Shown here in pieces: positions 3,521 through 29,212 of a stretch of DNA of 35,368 nucleotides (the first letter of the stretch is position 1; each line of letters opens with the position of its first letter). Below the pieces are notes generated by a model that made no database searches, was not told where the DNA came from, and was given only the letters and a program-made list of their open reading frames with translations. Made by a program: the position numbers and the translations under genes. This DNA comes from a virus. The stretch lies in the IMG/VR virus record IMGVR_UViG_3300046007_008299, positions 1 to 35,368 of that record. The stretch is one strand, 5' to 3'.

Positions 3521-4033
3521 TTAGTTTTTCGGTGTGTACCGTTTGCGCATGTATTCGGCTTTAGCCCGTTTGCAGTCGTCGCAAACAGGGATGCCGTACA
3601 GGTAATGCTTCGTGTATCCGGAGGCTGTTCCGTGTTCGAAGTTGCCGGGCACAGTGTTTTTCTGACGTCGTTTGTATTCCTTGATGCGATCGGTTTTGTA
3701 TCCGGCGTGGGCTTGTAGGCAGGCTTGACAGGCTGAGATGCCATGTCGCTTATGTTGGTCATACCCGGCTGGTGTGCCGTGGTCGATGACTGGCGGGTTG
3801 TTGTTGGCTTTGCGTAACGGTTTCAATTCTTTGGCTGTCATGCCGGCGAACACCCCTTCCGTGTCCACCGGCAATGTCAGCGCATACGTGTGACAGGCCT
3901 CCAATTCTGGGCATGTCTGGCAGATGCTGACCGCCTCCTTCTGAGTGTCAGCATCAAACCAGATGTTGTTGTCATGCTGTTTGCAGAGCGCTTCTGTGAA
4001 TGTCGGGTTGACGACAGCAATGAAACGGTTCAT
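3521..4033 (-). CDS. WhiB-like protein fused to two HGT..C..C zinc-binding repeats
   Basis: A 170-residue protein. Residues 1-75 carry the WhiB signature: C17, then C38-x2-C41-x5-C47, followed by the GVFAG turn (60-64). WhiB-family proteins bind a 4Fe-4S cluster and act as actinobacterial transcription regulators. The C-terminal half holds two copies of a module beginning HGT.xGY and ending in C-x2-C plus basic residues, at 85-113 (C102/C105) and 134-162 (C151/C154). These look like small zinc-binding, possibly nucleic-acid-binding, units also seen in actinophages. ATG 4033 is chosen because AAAGGA lies 6 nt upstream and the WhiB domain starts there; the longer frame adds unrelated residues. 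It probably modulates host or phage transcription (inference). Confidence 0.75.
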   Translation of the reverse strand: MNRFIAVVNPTFTEALCKQHDNNIWFDADTQKEAVSICQTCPELEACHTYALTLPVDTEGVFAGMTAKELKPLRKANNNPPVIDHGTPAGYDQHKRHGISACQACLQAHAGYKTDRIKEYKRRQKNTVPGNFEHGTASGYTKHYLYGIPVCDDCKRAKAEYMRKRYTPKN

Positions 4034-4046
4034 GGATAGTCCTTTG

Positions 4047-4559
4047 TCAGTCGCAGATTTTGCCGTTGCCCATGCAATCGAAAGGAATAGGACCTTCCAT
4101 GAAGTTTGCATATCCTCGACAGCCGGTGTACAGGACAGCCTGAGCCACAAGAGCTGCAATATTCAACTGGTTCGGTGTCAAACCCATTGCTGTCGCAACT
4201 TCACGCATCACAGACATACGGGATGTCGGGCCGGCCTCCCACATGTTGCATGCCATCTCCCCTCCAGCTTTCAATGAGGCTGCGGAAACTTGTGATGACG
4301 TACCGGGGCTCCACTCATCAATTTTGGCGGCAAGTGAACTCTTCGCCGGTCCAGCAGGTTTCGGGGGAAGTGTGGTTGTGGTGGTTGTGGTTGTGGATGT
4401 TGTTGTGGTGGATGTGCTCGAGGTGGTTGGTGCCGGCAGATAAACGACCTCACGAATGATCTGCGGTTCCGGATCTGCGGAAACCCCGACGTAGATGGCG
4501 GTGGCTGCGGTGGCGATCCCGGCGATCAACGCAACCTGGGTGAGTGTGTTGGCTTTCAT
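4047..4559 (-). CDS. Membrane-anchored or secreted protein with Thr-rich linker
   Basis: A 170-residue protein. An N-terminal hydrophobic segment (about 6-27) is followed by an extracytoplasmic region, a Ser/Thr-rich linker (about 46-66, including a run of eight Thr) and a C-terminal domain with several cysteines (including C103, C147, C160 and C169 by my count). The C-terminal part (MREVATAMGLTPNQLN ... YTGCRGYANF) resembles small DUF732-like actinobacterial exported domains, but I cannot assign it firmly. GAGGAGACATAA provides a strong ribosome site. It overlaps the next gene by ATGA. A cell-surface protein in the early operon may alter the host envelope or exclude other phages; that is inference. 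Confidence 0.65.
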   Translation of the reverse strand: MKANTLTQVALIAGIATAATAIYVGVSADPEPQIIREVVYLPAPTTSSTSTTTTSTTTTTTTTLPPKPAGPAKSSLAAKIDEWSPGTSSQVSAASLKAGGEMACNMWEAGPTSRMSVMREVATAMGLTPNQLNIAALVAQAVLYTGCRGYANFMEGPIPFDCMGNGKICD

Positions 4560-5815: not shown

Positions 5816-5834
5816 TGTCCCCTCCTAAGGATTC
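5816..5834 (-). promoter_or_regulatory. Strong ribosome-binding leader, copy 2
   Basis: On the minus strand ATCCTTAGGAGGGGACA precedes ATG 5815. The AGGAGGGG core is a near-ideal Shine-Dalgarno sequence. From the AATCC box through the first base of codon 2, the string differs at one position from the leader before ATG 6949. Confidence 0.7.
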
Positions 5835-6450
5835 ATATTTTCAATTGTGGTCTTTTGCCGTACTCAAGCATTTTGATAAGTTTTGGTGTGTTGATGTCTG
5901 GCCCAAAGGCTAGGAATGTTCCGTCGGCTGAATCGCATCCCCAATTGACTGCAAGTTCAATTCTTTTTTGACTGTTGACTCGACCCATGTGGACCCATTT
6001 GCCGAGACTTTTTGCGTGCTGCGTATATTGTTTCGCGTCTTCTGACAGCTTGTATTTGGTCGTCCCTCCAATAAAAAGGCAGTCAAGTTGATCCCATGGG
6101 ATCGTGTCATAAGTTGCGCCGTCTTGCAAAACGAACGCCGTCTTAAACCCTTGATTTTTAACCATTGCCGAGTATTTTTCCCATTTGATGCTTGTTTCAA
6201 TGGGGTCACACACGGTGTCAGGCACGACAGCGAAAAGTGCTGAACCTGCATTTGGTCTGGTTGACAACCAGTTGATCCATGTTGCGTAATCCCATTTGTT
6301 TGAAAAACATCCATTGTCTGCGGCCCAGATCCAGTTTGTTTCGATGAGTGACCTTTGCGAAAATGGGGTAAGCAATGCACCAAACCCATTTTCACGAAGG
6401 AGTTCACGAAGCTCAGTTTTTGCTGGCAAGCAGCCGGTTAGATAGATCAC
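5833..6450 (-). CDS. dpdA: TGT/DpdA-like 7-deazaguanine DNA base-exchange enzyme
   Basis: A 205-residue protein with the TIM-barrel pattern of the tRNA-guanine transglycosylase superfamily, in the short phage DpdA-like form. Visible elements are AADNGCFS (D45), VVPD (D78), VLQDG (Q109-D110), LFIGGTTKYK (G128-G129), HMGRVNS (154-160) and GCDSADGT (D173/D176, a candidate nucleophile region). DpdA enzymes swap guanine in DNA for preQ0 or preQ1-type bases. The strongest support is context: the gene overlaps by 38 nt the gene for a queuosine-precursor transporter. The start is GTG 6450, with AAGG 6 nt upstream. It is shorter than bacterial TGT (about 370 residues). Exact substrate and product are unknown. 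The symbol is a family assignment. Confidence 0.75.
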   Translation of the reverse strand: MIYLTGCLPAKTELRELLRENGFGALLTPFSQRSLIETNWIWAADNGCFSNKWDYATWINWLSTRPNAGSALFAVVPDTVCDPIETSIKWEKYSAMVKNQGFKTAFVLQDGATYDTIPWDQLDCLFIGGTTKYKLSEDAKQYTQHAKSLGKWVHMGRVNSQKRIELAVNWGCDSADGTFLAFGPDINTPKLIKMLEYGKRPQLKI

Positions 6451-6949
6451 GGTATGCCTTGAACATAAGTGCCGCTACAACGGCGACAGCTGTTTTGCCG
6501 ATGATTTGACCCTGCCAGAACATTGTTGACCCGAAAGCGATCTGCAGGAAGATCAGACTGTCGATCACTCCACCGATAATCCCGGATGTGGCAATGGCGG
6601 CTGGCTTGTTTCGACGGCGGATTTTTGTGTAGATCGCAAAGTCGATGAGTTCGCTGACTGCAAACGCAACTGCGCTGGCTGTGGCGACCGCAGGATTCAC
6701 AATGTATGAGAGGCAGATTCCGACTGCGATGGCTGCCAATGCGAGGTTGCGTCCTGCTTTTTCTTGCACATAGTCGCGCAATGCAAGTGCAACGCCGATC
6801 AGCAGGACGCCAGATGGGGCTTGATATCCAAATCCGACAGGGATTGTGTGAGGCCCATCGGGAAAACCTTGTGTGCCAATGTTTTGAATCATCCAATTCG
6901 CTACTGGGATTGTCAGCAAATATCCGATGAGTGCCAAGTATTTCTTCAT
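6413..6949 (-). CDS. yhhQ: Queuosine-precursor transporter, VUT/YhhQ family
   Basis: A 178-residue integral membrane protein with about five or six hydrophobic segments. It has the family hallmarks RDYVQE (59-64), SELIDFAIYTK and SGIIGGVIDSLIFLQIAFG, followed by GQIIGK. VUT/YhhQ proteins import 7-deazaguanine precursors (preQ0/preQ1). No FolE, QueD, QueE or QueC gene is in the window, so the phage would depend on host-made or scavenged precursor, with this transporter feeding the overlapping DpdA-like enzyme. A strong ribosome site (TAGGAGGGGACA) precedes ATG 6949. The family call is secure; the exact substrate is inferred. Confidence 0.87.
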   Translation of the reverse strand: MKKYLALIGYLLTIPVANWMIQNIGTQGFPDGPHTIPVGFGYQAPSGVLLIGVALALRDYVQEKAGRNLALAAIAVGICLSYIVNPAVATASAVAFAVSELIDFAIYTKIRRRNKPAAIATSGIIGGVIDSLIFLQIAFGSTMFWQGQIIGKTAVAVVAALMFKAYRDLSNRLLASKN

Positions 6950-6968
6950 TGTCCCCTCCTAGGGATTG
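6950..6968 (-). promoter_or_regulatory. Strong ribosome-binding leader, copy 1
   Basis: On the minus strand ATCCCTAGGAGGGGACA precedes ATG 6949 of the transporter gene. It is the near-identical partner of the leader before ATG 5815. It should give high initiation relative to its coupled neighbours. Confidence 0.7.
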
Positions 6969-7301
6969 TCAGAGTGTTTCTCTGAATGTTGTTGACCATT
7001 GCTCAACTGTTTGGATGGCGATCCACTGTCCGCCTCGACGTCGAATGAAGAGGACGGCATGTGTGTCACCAGAGTTGCGTTGCTGCTGATCGAGATCCTT
7101 CAAGCCTTGGTTGATGGCTCGGAGGACGTCTGTGTAGTTCTTTGCTTGTGCGGTGCAGTCGGGGAGCCCGTCGAGGTCGCCGGTGTCGTCTGCACGACCG
7201 GCACCCAACTTACGGCGCACCCGGAACCCAAGCAAGTCAGACAGAATGCGGGACAGCTCAAGTTCAGCCCGGTCGCCTTTGGCTTTCTGCGGGTTGCTCA
7301 C
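6969..7301 (-). CDS. PD-(D/E)XK nuclease, Holliday-junction-resolvase-like
   Basis: A 110-residue protein. It has an N-terminal KGDRAELEL helix (catalytic Glu candidate), then GAGRADDTGDLDGLPD and CTAQAKNY, the D...(D/E)xK-like core (QAK) of small resolvase-type nucleases, and an ending HAVLFIRRRGGQWIAI strand. It would act on branched replication or recombination intermediates before packaging. The start is GTG 7301, overlapping the WhiB stop (GTGA), with AAGG 7 nt upstream; the longer ATG frame has no support. Resolvase versus other endonuclease is not decided. Confidence 0.7.
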   Translation of the reverse strand: MSNPQKAKGDRAELELSRILSDLLGFRVRRKLGAGRADDTGDLDGLPDCTAQAKNYTDVLRAINQGLKDLDQQQRNSGDTHAVLFIRRRGGQWIAIQTVEQWSTTFRETL

Positions 7302-7606
7302 TGAGGCACCTTTTTGAGTCGTGCTCCGCTCCAAGTGACCATTTTGCGGCCTCGTTCACGCAGGATCGTTTCCCGCTCGGATCTAGTCAACCCACCGAAG
7401 ATGCCGTGGGTGTCGTACATCATTGCGAGCTGCAAACCGTATTCGGCGCATTCTGATTGGACAGCGCATTGTTTGCAGATCACTTTCGCAGCCCTGATCT
7501 TCAGGGTCTCTCCTCGAACAGGCATGAACAGTTCCGGGTCCATCCCTTTGCAAGCAGCCCGGTTCATGAAGCTGCGATCAACTGTGTCGGTGTCAATCAA
7601 AGCCAT
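7298..7606 (-). CDS. whiB: WhiB-like transcriptional regulator
   Basis: A 102-residue WhiB-family protein with all four cluster cysteines: C19, then C44-x2-C47-x5-C53. The GIFGG turn (68-72) is followed by LTRSERETILRER, the basic C-terminal segment that contacts DNA or the sigma factor. WhiB proteins are essentially confined to actinobacteria and their phages, and bind a 4Fe-4S cluster. It probably redirects or dampens host transcription early in infection (inference). Its start overlaps the stop of the 33-residue membrane gene (TAATG). Confidence 0.92.
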   Translation of the reverse strand: MALIDTDTVDRSFMNRAACKGMDPELFMPVRGETLKIRAAKVICKQCAVQSECAEYGLQLAMMYDTHGIFGGLTRSERETILRERGRKMVTWSGARLKKVPQ

Positions 7607-12958: not shown

Positions 12959-14017
12959 TTACAAGGCACCGAACTGTTTGTCCAGCTCAGCGCGCATCAA
13001 AGCAACATTGTCCCTTAACCGTTTATCTTTCGGTGAGACAGAAATAGCATCCCACCCATGTTTTATGGCTACTGGACGCCGGCCGGAATACCATGCGGAG
13101 ATCGCAGCCAAATCATGAGGCAACGCACCCCACGCATCCTCCTCACACAAATACTCCAAAGGCTTCTCTTTAATACTTAAAGCCCGCATGCACGCCGCAT
13201 AACACTGATCCCACTGTTTCGTCTCATGATAAAACCCGGCGAGTTCCACCCACGGTTCACGCCGATATGGGGCCTCGGCGCACGCTCGAAGGAACCATGC
13301 TTCTTTGTCGCCGGTAATCCGACCGAGATATCGCATGCAGGTTGCACGCTCAGGAGCCCACTTTGACAGCTCTAGATGGCGGCGCAAATGCGGTTCCGCT
13401 TCGCTGTTTCTGCCGTTGAACATGAGTTCACGACCCAGATAGAACCGGTTGCGGTCATCATCCGGGCGTTCCTGGACAGCCAACTCAAGCAGAGGCAGAT
13501 ATTGGGATCGTGACTTTGACGGGTCAGGATGATGATGGATTTCGAGGCCCACAAACTCTTGCACTTCGCTGATTGTTGGGGTGAGAACCTCATGCACCGG
13601 ATGAGTCCAGCGGTAGCCGTGCCGGGCATGAATCTTGTCCCCGGAATAGACGAGTCCTTCGCTGCCGTCAGGTTTCCATGACCACACATACTTGTAGCGA
13701 GGTCGAGTCACCCCAGCCGACACCTTCTCCAACTGTTCACGCCAACCGGGAGCAAGAACCTCATCAGCGTCCAACGCGATACAGAAATCAATGTCATCCG
13801 GGATCAACGCCATTGATTTGTTTCGGGCGTCATCGAACCGCCACGGTGACACCGTGATCTGTGCAGTATCGCAACCAGCATCAGCAGCTGCGATCAGCGT
13901 GTCGTCGCTCGAGCCGGTGTCAACAATCAGCCGAAAGTCAGCATCCTCACACGATTTAGCCCAACGAGCCACAAACTGCTGCTCATTCTTCGTGATCGTA
14001 TAAACCGCTACCCTCAT
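12959..14017 (-). CDS. Family 2 glycosyltransferase with TPR-like C-terminus
   Basis: A 352-residue protein. The N-terminal GT-A domain shows YTITKNEQQFVARW, VDTGSSDDT and the DxD motif ALDADE (near 81-86). From about residue 165 the sequence is helical and TPR-like. The family transfers sugars from NDP-sugars. It follows the tail-fibre gene and its small companion, so the fibre (Thr-rich collagen region) or other virion proteins are plausible acceptors; this is inference. No strong ribosome site is seen. Confidence 0.82.
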   Translation of the reverse strand: MRVAVYTITKNEQQFVARWAKSCEDADFRLIVDTGSSDDTLIAAADAGCDTAQITVSPWRFDDARNKSMALIPDDIDFCIALDADEVLAPGWREQLEKVSAGVTRPRYKYVWSWKPDGSEGLVYSGDKIHARHGYRWTHPVHEVLTPTISEVQEFVGLEIHHHPDPSKSRSQYLPLLELAVQERPDDDRNRFYLGRELMFNGRNSEAEPHLRRHLELSKWAPERATCMRYLGRITGDKEAWFLRACAEAPYRREPWVELAGFYHETKQWDQCYAACMRALSIKEKPLEYLCEEDAWGALPHDLAAISAWYSGRRPVAIKHGWDAISVSPKDKRLRDNVALMRAELDKQFGAL

Positions 14018-14026
14018 ACGGGCAGA

Positions 14027-17515
<3,489 letters not shown>

Positions 17516-25630: not shown

Positions 25631-26182
25631 CTACCCGACAGTGATAATGCCCAGCCCGTAACAACCCTCAACCCACTCCACCGACCGATACGGGCCAGCA
25701 GACACGAACTCTGCGACAGCCTGCGCCACCGGAAAATCAGGATCAGATGGCGGAGAAGCCTCAGGGCGTTTCAACTCGGTGTCATGCAACACGATCAAAC
25801 CGCCAGCCTTCACCTTCCTCACATACATCTCGAGCTCCTGTTTCGTCTGCTCATAAGTGTGAGAAGTATCAATGAAAACAATGTCCACATTTTCAGGAAG
25901 CTGATCGACAACCTCCAAATCATCGCCGACAGTCAAATACCAGAACGGCAGATCACGCCATTCGGCCGGCACACGAGGATCAGCGATATCAACAGACCAC
26001 ACCTCGCCACCCTGCTCCTCAGCAGCCGCCAAAAACGCTGACGTCGAATCACCGCCACGCACACCCAACTCAATTATCTTGACATGCGGTTTCGACGCCA
26101 ACTCGAACAGGCGAGGCAAATGGGCATGGATATCCGACCCCGACTGCGACCGGCGAAAACACTCTTGCAACAAACTCATCAT
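25631..26182 (-). CDS. Class I SAM-dependent methyltransferase
   Basis: A 183-residue protein. IIELGVRGGDSTSAFLAAA is the SAM-binding motif I; VWSVDI, VDIVFIDTSHTYEQTKQELEMY and GGLIVLHDT follow the Methyltransf_24 pattern. This group often modifies sugars or small molecules and is encoded beside glycosyltransferases, as here, so it could finish a glycan placed on virion proteins. ATG 26182 overlaps the previous stop (TGATG); an in-frame ATG one codon later is an alternative. Confidence 0.82.
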   Translation of the reverse strand: MMSLLQECFRRSQSGSDIHAHLPRLFELASKPHVKIIELGVRGGDSTSAFLAAAEEQGGEVWSVDIADPRVPAEWRDLPFWYLTVGDDLEVVDQLPENVDIVFIDTSHTYEQTKQELEMYVRKVKAGGLIVLHDTELKRPEASPPSDPDFPVAQAVAEFVSAGPYRSVEWVEGCYGLGIITVG

Positions 26183-26829
26183 CAAGTCCTATCTGAATGC
26201 TGACGAATCTTAAACAACGGATTACCACGCAAACCGCCAGATAAAGACCGTACATCCAAACCGCACCGGCGCAACACCACCGGTAACGACAACTGATCCT
26301 GCACAGTCCACCTGTGGATCTCATCCAACCATGACTGCCCGAACTGGCGCACGCGCACCGAATCACGCATAATGAACAGTCCGGCAGCCCACAAACCCCA
26401 ATCATCAGGATGGCCGGCATCCACATACGCCTCGACCTGACCAATCACATCATGACCTCGATACTTCCGCAACGGCAACGATGCAGAAGCCTCAGCAACA
26501 ATCGACGAACGATCAGGATGCGGATGGAACGCCACATCACCATCACCCAAATCGGCGATCATCTGCTCAACCAGTCGAGCATCCGGCACAATCGACCCAT
26601 CCAGCCAGACGAACAGATCAGCATCAGCGAACTCCCACGGACAGCACTTCGGGAACTTCGCAGCCAACCGAGGATCAACATCACCACGATCCGCATGAAC
26701 ATGCTCGAACTGACGAGGCACATTCACCGAACCATCAGTGACGATCACATGATGACAATTGACGCTCTGCTCAACCCACACCGGCTCGTCATATCCGCCG
26801 AACACCGCTGAAAGAACAGCGACTCTCAC
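26182..26829 (-). CDS. Glycosyltransferase-like protein (DUF616/TOD1-type)
   Basis: A 215-residue protein. AVLSAVFGGYDEP and ADLFVWLDGSIVP (a D-x-D-like motif) with KYRGHDVIGQVEAY are the features of DUF616-type glycosyltransferases. It starts at GTG 26829, overlapping the upstream stop (GTGA), and forms a coupled block with the double glycosyltransferase and the methyltransferase. Acceptor and sugar are unknown. Confidence 0.72.
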   Translation of the reverse strand: MRVAVLSAVFGGYDEPVWVEQSVNCHHVIVTDGSVNVPRQFEHVHADRGDVDPRLAAKFPKCCPWEFADADLFVWLDGSIVPDARLVEQMIADLGDGDVAFHPHPDRSSIVAEASASLPLRKYRGHDVIGQVEAYVDAGHPDDWGLWAAGLFIMRDSVRVRQFGQSWLDEIHRWTVQDQLSLPVVLRRCGLDVRSLSGGLRGNPLFKIRQHSDRT

Positions 26830-28208
26830 CGGCCGGCGAACTTCCGATATCGAGCCTTGAACAGCTTCTCATCCTCATCAGATTTCGCAGCGCCACGATC
26901 GTAAACATCATCATTCGGAGCCTTACCGATCATCGGATGAACATGCTCAACCTCAGACCCCAACGCAACCTGGAACACACCATGCTGCTTCGCGACACTC
27001 ACCAGCTCATCATCAACGAACCAATGATTGTATCCCTCATGGCAGAGCACTCCAGGCCCATCCCATGATGCGCCCTTCTCCATCGCATACTCACGCTCGA
27101 CAAGCATGTGTGTCGCATGCTCACCGCGCATCACACGAGGATTCGCAAGATCATTCGTTCCAATAACCTTCGCCCCATATCGGCGGGCGACCTCGAAACA
27201 ATGATCTAACCAACCCGGCCGGAATTTGACATCATCACCGGCCAAGAAAACCCACTTAGCTTCACTCTCCGCCGAGAGACGGTCGAACGCAAAGTTCGCC
27301 TTCTGAGCAAAAGTTCCAGAATGAAATAGAACATTCCCACCATAAGCAGAAACCTCATCAGCCTGAACATCATCACCTTCCTCGCAAACAAACCATGCTC
27401 GAGCCAAACCAGTCGAAGCCCGCAACGACTCCATAAACGGTTTCACATTCTGCGGTCGATGCAACACCGGCACAATCACATCCACCAGCTCAGTCGCCGG
27501 CGGCGCATAAAACGACTGCCAGAAATCCGATTCACCCAACCACAAATTCTTCAGATGAGTAGTGCGAATCCCCGTATGGATAAACAGCGGGATATCCAAA
27601 GCCTGACAGCGAACGAAGAAACTGATGTCTTCACCGATCAACGAACCGTCAGTTCCACGCACCCGATCAAACCAGCATTCACCCTCAGATTCTTTGATCC
27701 GTTCAAACACTGAACGATGAATCAAAATGAACGCCCCGCCAGTCGCAGCGCACTGAACCAGCGAATTCACAGGGAAATGCGAACGGCCTGTGAACCGCCA
27801 ATGCCCGTCATCATGCTGCAACCAATCGAAGATCGTCGGTCGAGGCACACACCGGAAACCGTTAGATCCGTCATCGAACGCTTCACGTTGGGCGAAACAT
27901 AAACCGCCGACAATCGGACGATTCACTGGATCAGCAAGTGATAACAGCTGATACAACCCGACAGGCTCAAAACCCATATCCGCATCGACCATGAACAGCC
28001 ACTCACAGTCAGAATTCAACAGAGCGGTCGCCAACTGGTTACGACCCTCAGGGATACCACCCGAAGCGCATTTAATTGAAGCCCAACCGTTCAAACGACG
28101 ATCGTGCGCCATGTCATAACCGACAAGAGCCATCAGACTCTTATGGAACGAAGTGCTCACCTCATGCGGATGCAAATACCCGACAAGAACATCACTTTTC
28201 GGTTGCAC
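26826..28208 (-). CDS. Double glycosyltransferase (two GT-A domains)
   Basis: A 460-residue protein built of two GT-like halves. Residues 1-235 contain EGRNQLATALL, LFMVDADMGFEP (the DxD motif), ATGGAFILIHRSVFE and EDISFFVRC. Residues about 240-460 contain VIVPVLHRPQNVKPFMESL, the DD motif in FLAGDDVKFRPGWLD and a final EVEHVHP. Each half looks complete, so the protein may add two sugars in sequence. The position between head genes suggests capsid glycosylation (inference). The start is GTG 28208 with AGGTG upstream, overlapping the previous gene by 17 nt. Confidence 0.8.
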   Translation of the reverse strand: MQPKSDVLVGYLHPHEVSTSFHKSLMALVGYDMAHDRRLNGWASIKCASGGIPEGRNQLATALLNSDCEWLFMVDADMGFEPVGLYQLLSLADPVNRPIVGGLCFAQREAFDDGSNGFRCVPRPTIFDWLQHDDGHWRFTGRSHFPVNSLVQCAATGGAFILIHRSVFERIKESEGECWFDRVRGTDGSLIGEDISFFVRCQALDIPLFIHTGIRTTHLKNLWLGESDFWQSFYAPPATELVDVIVPVLHRPQNVKPFMESLRASTGLARAWFVCEEGDDVQADEVSAYGGNVLFHSGTFAQKANFAFDRLSAESEAKWVFLAGDDVKFRPGWLDHCFEVARRYGAKVIGTNDLANPRVMRGEHATHMLVEREYAMEKGASWDGPGVLCHEGYNHWFVDDELVSVAKQHGVFQVALGSEVEHVHPMIGKAPNDDVYDRGAAKSDEDEKLFKARYRKFAGR

Positions 28209-28579: not shown

Positions 28580-29212
28580 TCACAGAGTGTCGGGAAGACC
28601 ATCCTCAGTAGCTGCATTCGCAGCGGCCGGGGCGCTACCGACATCAACACCATTCGTTGGGACCTGCGGAGTCACATCGATGAAACCAGCGATGCAATAC
28701 AGCCAGCCGTTCGCCAGATTTGCAGCAGACACGATCAGCGCACCAGCAATGAATACATCACCAGGAACCGAACGTGACACCGGATCAGCCGAACCGAACA
28801 CAGTCGCAACAAACCCAGACAGCATCGTGATACGAGTCAAATCTGTGTCTTCCAACTCGTTCTGATCAAACGAACCACGCGCAACATGATCATTCACGAT
28901 CGCCTTCGCGATAGCAGGATTGCCCGCAATGTCGCTGATCTCCAGATTCAGATCATCAAGGACATCCGCCAGCACCGACTCGACAGGAGCGAACACCGTG
29001 TAATTCGGCTTGCCGTTCCCGTCAGTGTCAAGAGCGCCAGCTGCACCTGCAATCAGCACAATCTGCTCGAACAGTTCGCCACCATCATCGCTGCAAAGTC
29101 CGGCATCGATGCCTTCCCAAACAGTCGAATCAGCGTAACCAGCCGAAGCAGGGACAACACTGGCGCCGACAACTGCCGCACCAGCGAGCATTCCAATAAG
29201 AATCTTCTTCAT
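28580..29212 (-). CDS. Secreted fasciclin (FAS1) domain protein
   Basis: A 210-residue protein with a signal peptide (MKKILIGMLAGAAVVGASVVPASA, about 24 residues). A FAS1-like domain follows: NYTVFAPVESVLADVLDDL, AIVNDHVARG (the H-box), ITMLSGFVATVFG, and GALIVSAANLANGWLYCIAGFIDV. FAS1 domains mediate adhesion to surfaces or polymers. It lies between the capsid gene and the glycosyltransferase cassette, with its own candidate promoter (29264-29293) and terminator hairpins on both sides, as a moron-type insert would. It could be exported by infected cells or displayed on the virion. GGAAGG precedes the ATG. Confidence 0.75.
   Translation of the reverse strand: MKKILIGMLAGAAVVGASVVPASAGYADSTVWEGIDAGLCSDDGGELFEQIVLIAGAAGALDTDGNGKPNYTVFAPVESVLADVLDDLNLEISDIAGNPAIAKAIVNDHVARGSFDQNELEDTDLTRITMLSGFVATVFGSADPVSRSVPGDVFIAGALIVSAANLANGWLYCIAGFIDVTPQVPTNGVDVGSAPAAANAATEDGLPDTL

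Follow-up and report, generated by a model that had tools for sequence, protein, structure and literature searches.

We consider it likely that two overlapping phage genes form a compact import-and-insert module, by which a 7-deazaguanine base is imported and then exchanged for guanine in the phage DNA. The first gene encodes a Vut_1-type transporter through which the infected actinobacterium would take up the base, a member of the preQ0 or preQ1 class. The second encodes a DpdA1-like enzyme of 205 aa that would swap guanine in the phage DNA for the imported base by the base-exchange chemistry of tRNA-guanine transglycosylases (TGT) and DpdA. The modified DNA would then be resistant to some restriction enzymes. 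The computed evidence concerns the identity of the genes, the fold class, the homology to DpdA1, the invariant residues, and the linkage of the family to preQ0 import or synthesis.

Two overlapping genes in the window

The window, i.e., the whole stretch of DNA that we analyzed, is an IMG/VR record of 35,368 bases, linear and devoid of terminal repeats, so its completeness is unproven. The features of interest are the following.

5833..6450, minus strand: small DpdA1-like TIM-barrel protein (phrog_15826), 205 aa, GTG start
6413..6949, minus strand: Vut_1/COG1738 (YhhQ-type) queuosine-precursor transporter homologue, 178 aa, ATG start
6413..6450, minus strand: overlap of 38 nt between the 3' end of the transporter gene and the start of the small gene
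6950..6965, minus strand: Shine-Dalgarno region AGGAGGGGACA of the transporter gene, at the start of the two-gene unit

A sequence-only reading of this DNA had proposed the pair. We recovered both open reading frames at these coordinates, on the minus strand and with the 38-nt overlap, as well as every motif that had been quoted for them (AADNGCFS, VLQDG, IGGTTKYK, and GCDSADGT in the small protein, SELIDFAIYTK and SGIIGGVIDS in the transporter). Judging from sequence matches, both are real genes, since the small protein matches phrog_15826 and 24 phage records, and the transporter matches Vut_1 and phrog_4899. The transporter gene (6949 to 6413) has a strong AGGAGG ribosome-binding site, whereas the 25 nt that precede the GTG start of the small gene contain no clear Shine-Dalgarno motif. 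Together with the overlap, this suggests that translation of the small gene is coupled to that of the upstream transporter gene. We found no homologues of folE, queD, queE, or queC among the open reading frames of the window, as had been noticed from the sequence.

The neighbors of the small gene in the window are replication and recombination genes (RusA-like resolvase, exonuclease, primase-helicase). An actinobacterial host is suggested by two phage-encoded WhiB-type regulators (3521-4159 and 7298-7606) and by the terminase, which matches 1061 phage records, mainly those of phages infecting Mycobacterium, Arthrobacter, Gordonia, and Microbacterium. Elsewhere, the window encodes a probable tail fiber of 990 aa that contains long collagen-like GPTGPTG repeats (14194-17166), and a glycosyltransferase-like gene matching phrog_13126 with an E-value of 3e-105 (12959-14017). 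Inspection of the sequence suggests further glycosyltransferase-like genes (26182-28208) and a secreted protein of 210 aa that looks like a fasciclin-type domain (28580-29212).

The small protein is a homologue of DpdA1

The small protein matches phrog_15826 (E 9e-52), a family in the category "unknown function", and no Pfam family. Relatives retrieved with tblastn come from 24 phage records and share at most about 40% identity with the small protein; several are deposited as "DpdA-like tRNA-guanine transglycosylase". The family is large in IMG/VR viral contigs: at least 549 relatives were found among the first 599 candidate stretches obtained by pattern and tblastn searches.

Profile-profile comparisons place this family next to DpdA1. 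The hhalign E-value is 1.7e-6 against DpdA1 and 1.9e-6 against the short phage DpdA-like singletons of phrog_887, while the controls gave 0.25 (TGT), 0.042 (ribulose-phosphate epimerase, RPE), 0.28 (VUT transporter), and 0.29 (DpdA2 of phage nt-1). The motifs of the small family and DpdA1 are in register (DNG with DSG, PD.VGD with LDGIGD, IGG with LGG, H with H, and D with D). On these profiles the small protein is homologous to DpdA1, and the DpdA-like identity first read from its motifs is borne out by this HHpred-type check. Its assignment to the TGT superfamily holds indirectly, through DpdA1; a direct match to TGT is lacking. Bacterial TGT (PF01702) was matched neither by phmmer or hmmsearch against the PDB nor by Pfam, the Pfam TGT domain is found in 0 of 70 members of the small family, and the 205-aa protein stops short of the region that holds the CxCxxC...H zinc site and the C-terminal part of TGT, both of which it lacks. 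Membership in DpdA2 was ruled out with respect to the nt-1 protein (hhalign E 0.29, no HMM hit). We also discarded another TIM barrel, RPE, for which there is no sequence support (hhalign E 0.042).

Seven residues are invariant in 136-138 diverse sequences: D45, P77, D78, Q109, G129, H154, and D176. In the TGT of Zymomonas, the catalytic and substrate-binding residues are D102, D156, Q203, G230, and D280. We take the invariant residues as putative catalytic and substrate-binding residues, with an equivalence that follows from the order of the motifs and not from a superposition. The base exchange would use the conserved aspartates D45 and D176, and the substrate-loop residues D78, Q109, and G128/G129.

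We built an AlphaFold model of the small protein from 64 window and viral sequences. It is a TIM barrel with a mean pLDDT of 94.4. TGT chains are among the PDB matches of Foldseek below an E-value of 0.001, but only from rank 18 (E 2e-4, rmsd 4.1), behind generic TIM barrels with RPE and thiazole synthase (ThiG) at the top. Because RPE and ThiG rank above TGT, the modeled fold alone does not discriminate between these enzymes; the profile-profile comparison does. In BFVD, the top named matches include queuine tRNA-ribosyltransferases of the Arthrobacter phages Mufasa8 and Sonali and the Mycobacterium phage Bella96.

The partner gene encodes a predicted Vut_1 transporter

The upstream protein scores 44 bits against Pfam Vut_1 (PF02592), above the gathering cut-off of 27.2, and matches phrog_4899. 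With TIGR00697 of NCBIfam it scores 43.7 bits, below the cut-off of 50.95. Its model (pLDDT 93.7) has six long helices, corresponding to six predicted transmembrane helices; against the PDB it has no significant match, and it resembles ECF S-components weakly. In an alignment of 70 phage relatives, every sequence matches Vut_1 (E <= 0.001). The Vut_1 score and the six predicted helices uphold the proposed YhhQ/VUT identity. The Vut_1 family was originally named only for "vitamin uptake". As cited in later work, YhhQ of E. coli is a preQ0 transporter (Zallot 2017, cited in PMC6884629 and PMC11130926).

Import or synthesis genes accompany many members of the small family

To study the genomic context of the family, we used 125 dereplicated viral loci, a number reached by adding a second scan that started from a distant member; they were picked by query similarity, related phages among them are not independent events, and many of the contigs are fragments. 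A Vut_1 gene lies within 321 nt of the small gene, always on the same strand, in 55 of these loci, so that the functional pairing proposed for the window recurs in independent relatives. In another 25 we found, in its place, genes of preQ0 synthesis (queC, queD, or queE), mostly directly adjacent, with a que gene within 200 nt in 21 loci. Only two entries have both, and these are the two halves of a split gene in one phage, Escherichia phage SHIN8, where Vut_1 is about 5 kb from the split small gene. Of the 125 loci, 82 have Vut_1 or que genes in the vicinity (only one of these kinds in 80), and 43 have neither. The hypergeometric P of so small an overlap is 2.4e-6.

The pattern was found in other samplings as well. 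The first set of 71 dereplicated loci included 50 with an adjacent same-strand Vut_1, eight with queC/D/E, and none with both. Among the 59 loci flanked on each side by 4 kb or more, the numbers are 27 for Vut_1, 15 for que genes, and 17 for neither, and an adjacent Vut_1 never occurs together with que genes. Searches of whole contigs in 32 records gave queC in seven and Vut_1 in 12, with none shared. An independent scan starting from the transporter yielded 42 dereplicated phage VUT loci. In 36 of them the transporter has a DpdA-type gene as its neighbor, namely a phrog_887-type singleton in 33 and a member of the small family in three. This mutually exclusive pattern of import or synthesis strongly supports a 7-deazaguanine substrate for the small family, and the replacement of VUT by queC, queD, or queE in 25 loci points specifically to preQ0.

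Some loci have other arrangements. One open reading frame that adjoins Vut_1 (L115:6776-7933) begins as a phrog_887-type DpdA-like protein, whose N-terminal half is followed by a QueC domain; this may reflect a genuine fusion, a deletion, or a chimeric assembly. In another locus (L082:7932-10571), the small DpdA-like domain is at the N-terminus of an open reading frame of 860-880 aa. A PP-loop/PAPS-reductase-like protein is encoded near the small gene in some actinobacterial and phage loci (L200:7186-8729, L004, L010, and L190), with a C5-cytosine methyltransferase upstream in the Nonomuraea locus. We rejected this association (ReqiPine5, R6L, Nonomuraea) as a general partner, since it concerns a minority and follows no class-specific pattern.

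Relatives with full-length DpdA1 and bacterial copies

In some relatives the small gene is part of a larger set. Arthrobacter phage Sonali, Vibrio phage R29Z, and Escherichia phage SHIN8 have the small gene, beside a full-length DpdA1, and genes of the preQ0 pathway; there, the small protein is a second DpdA-like protein. In R29Z and SHIN8 the small gene is between the sliding clamp and the DNA polymerase. In SHIN8 and phiG7 it is split in this interval into two overlapping open reading frames (L009:5714-6303), and is possibly decaying or frameshifted; the SHIN8 region also has the full-length DpdA1, que genes, and Vut_1.

These phages raise the possibility that the small protein is an accessory working with another DpdA, as a second subunit, a specificity factor, or an additional transglycosylase for another motif or base. 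The co-occurrence with full-length DpdA1 and preQ0 genes, seen in Sonali, R29Z, SHIN8/phiG7, and four other loci (L034, L039, L046, L323), speaks for it. Yet DpdA1 is present in 0 of 12 whole contigs bearing Vut_1, the putative catalytic residues are all kept, and in at least two contigs of 40 kb or more (L047, 42 kb; L066, 40.5 kb) the small gene adjoins queC and DpdA1 was not found. The small protein thus need not be an accessory, and we regard this explanation as unlikely for the family.

In bacterial genomes, the closest members of the family are found mainly in Actinomycetota. Most actinobacterial chromosomal copies have neither Vut_1 nor que genes nearby. The same is true of the longer phrog_15826 relatives, of about 220-300 aa or more, in Paraburkholderia, Caballeronia, and Pseudomonas (L229-L251). 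PF01702 has no match in 11 of 20 sampled bacterial genomes and a marginal one only in one more, and several actinobacterial genomes that carry the pair are without TGT. A survey of preQ0 genes in candidate hosts, as suggested with the first reading, gave strong QueC matches (E below 1e-50) in seven of 26 sampled genomes, but no clean relation to the presence of Vut_1. We therefore dropped the idea that VUT tracks hosts without QueC, as the pattern is mixed.

The pair might instead be an auxiliary metabolic module that restores or boosts queuosine-type modification of the host tRNA during infection. The superfamily includes tRNA-guanine transglycosylases, queuosine synthesis is normally fed by YhhQ, and such a role was weighed for phages with que genes and no DpdA (Hutinet 2019, PMC6884629). 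DNA is favored as the target on three grounds: the nearest characterized relative of the small protein is not TGT but the DNA-acting DpdA1, whose deletion leaves CAjan DNA unmodified (PMC6884629); the protein lacks the zinc site and the C-terminal part of TGT; and its gene has replication and recombination genes as neighbors in the window, in R29Z and SHIN8, and in Mycobacterium phage StevieRay. The pair-bearing actinobacterial genomes without TGT also argue against a tRNA role, which we find improbable. Equally hard to credit is the idea that the small protein is a TIM-barrel enzyme of non-TGT type, with some other purine-like metabolite as its substrate and as the cargo of Vut_1; this would fit the Foldseek ranking of RPE and ThiG, the lack of a direct TGT sequence match, and the old "vitamin uptake" label of the transporter, but not a DpdA1 profile link that is orders of magnitude better than that to RPE, nor the que genes found in the place of VUT.

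For the import-and-insert module, the points counted against it are the missing direct TGT profile match and the RPE and ThiG folds at the top of the PDB ranking, the 43 loci without supply genes, the relatives beside a full-length DpdA1, and the DpdA-only phage Orion, whose DNA carries no modification in M. smegmatis, a host without the preQ0 pathway (PMC6884629). Salvage is nevertheless the best reading for the window phage, which probably masks its DNA with an externally acquired base, as far as its gene content tells. We do not take salvage-only DNA modification as established across the family: some relatives come with the complete set of preQ0 pathway genes plus another DpdA of full length, and neither import nor synthesis genes lie near the small gene in 43 of the 125 viral loci and in most chromosomal copies of actinobacteria.

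Comparison with known systems

DpdA1 (phage 9g/CAjan; phrog_887) shares with the small family the profile homology, the link to preQ0 genes, and the order of the motifs DSG/DNG, D-x-x-GD, GG, H, and D. It differs in length (317 vs 205 aa) and PHROG, while the small family has signatures of its own (QDG, IGGTT.xK, HxGRVN, DSxDGT) and as a rule comes with an importer and not with a full synthesis cluster. The short phrog_887 singletons, such as gp30 of Pseudanabaena phage Pam5 (about 230 aa), are also small and adjoin the same phage Vut_1 family, but they are closer to DpdA1 (E 5e-13) than the small family is, and are annotated as queuine tRNA-ribosyltransferase. DpdA2 of Vibrio phage nt-1 (YP_008125322) is likewise a phage enzyme assigned to 7-deazaguanine insertion; it has 464 aa and no detectable profile similarity to the small family. 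The transporter of the window resembles YhhQ/COG1738/QPTR (PF02592) in its Vut_1 score and predicted helices, but has only 178 aa and stays under the TIGR00697 cut-off.

The separation of phrog_15826 from DpdA2 and TGT is new here, as is its assignment, unless Cui et al. (2023), who reportedly described DpdA3 and DpdA4, had already grouped it, which may be the case. Also new is the tight, mutually exclusive linkage of the small family to import or synthesis. The phage preQ0 transporter, the DpdA-only phages, and the idea of salvage were published in 2018-2019. Phage preQ0 transporters and the salvage hypothesis date from Pantoea phage Vid5 (PMC6266253) and Enterobacter phage EC151 (PMC8310023), where a phage-borne Vut_1 clusters with preQ0-synthesis genes and a full-length dpdA/tgt, whereas that of the window is alone with one minimal enzyme. 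dPreQ0 is present in the DNA of Rosebush and CAjan, YhhQ was uncorrelated with any phage group, and the source of the base in DpdA-only phages was left open (Hutinet et al. 2019, PMC6884629). Pantoea phage MED16, which has only dpdA, carries dADG at about 0.13% of G (PMC8306585).

Implications for phage DNA modification

With the import-or-make pattern, a large family of "unknown function" (more than 500 candidate loci in IMG/VR) gains a testable function and offers a route by which DNA modification could depend on nutrients. A transglycosylase of about 205 aa, if true, would be useful for enzymology. Existing isolates could settle the question, since the pair is carried by culturable phages: Mycobacterium Fishburnevirus phages such as StevieRay, Arthrobacter phage Aoka, and Rhodococcus phage ReqiPine5. 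Tentatively, and with slightly more doubt than conviction, we propose that phrog_15826 is a minimal DpdA subfamily that forms with its dedicated importer a two-gene salvage module common in phages, notably those of actinobacteria, several of which as hosts have no TGT and no strong QueC match. Hypermodification and restriction resistance would then depend on free preQ0 or preQ1 in the environment, and not on synthesis by the phage or the host.
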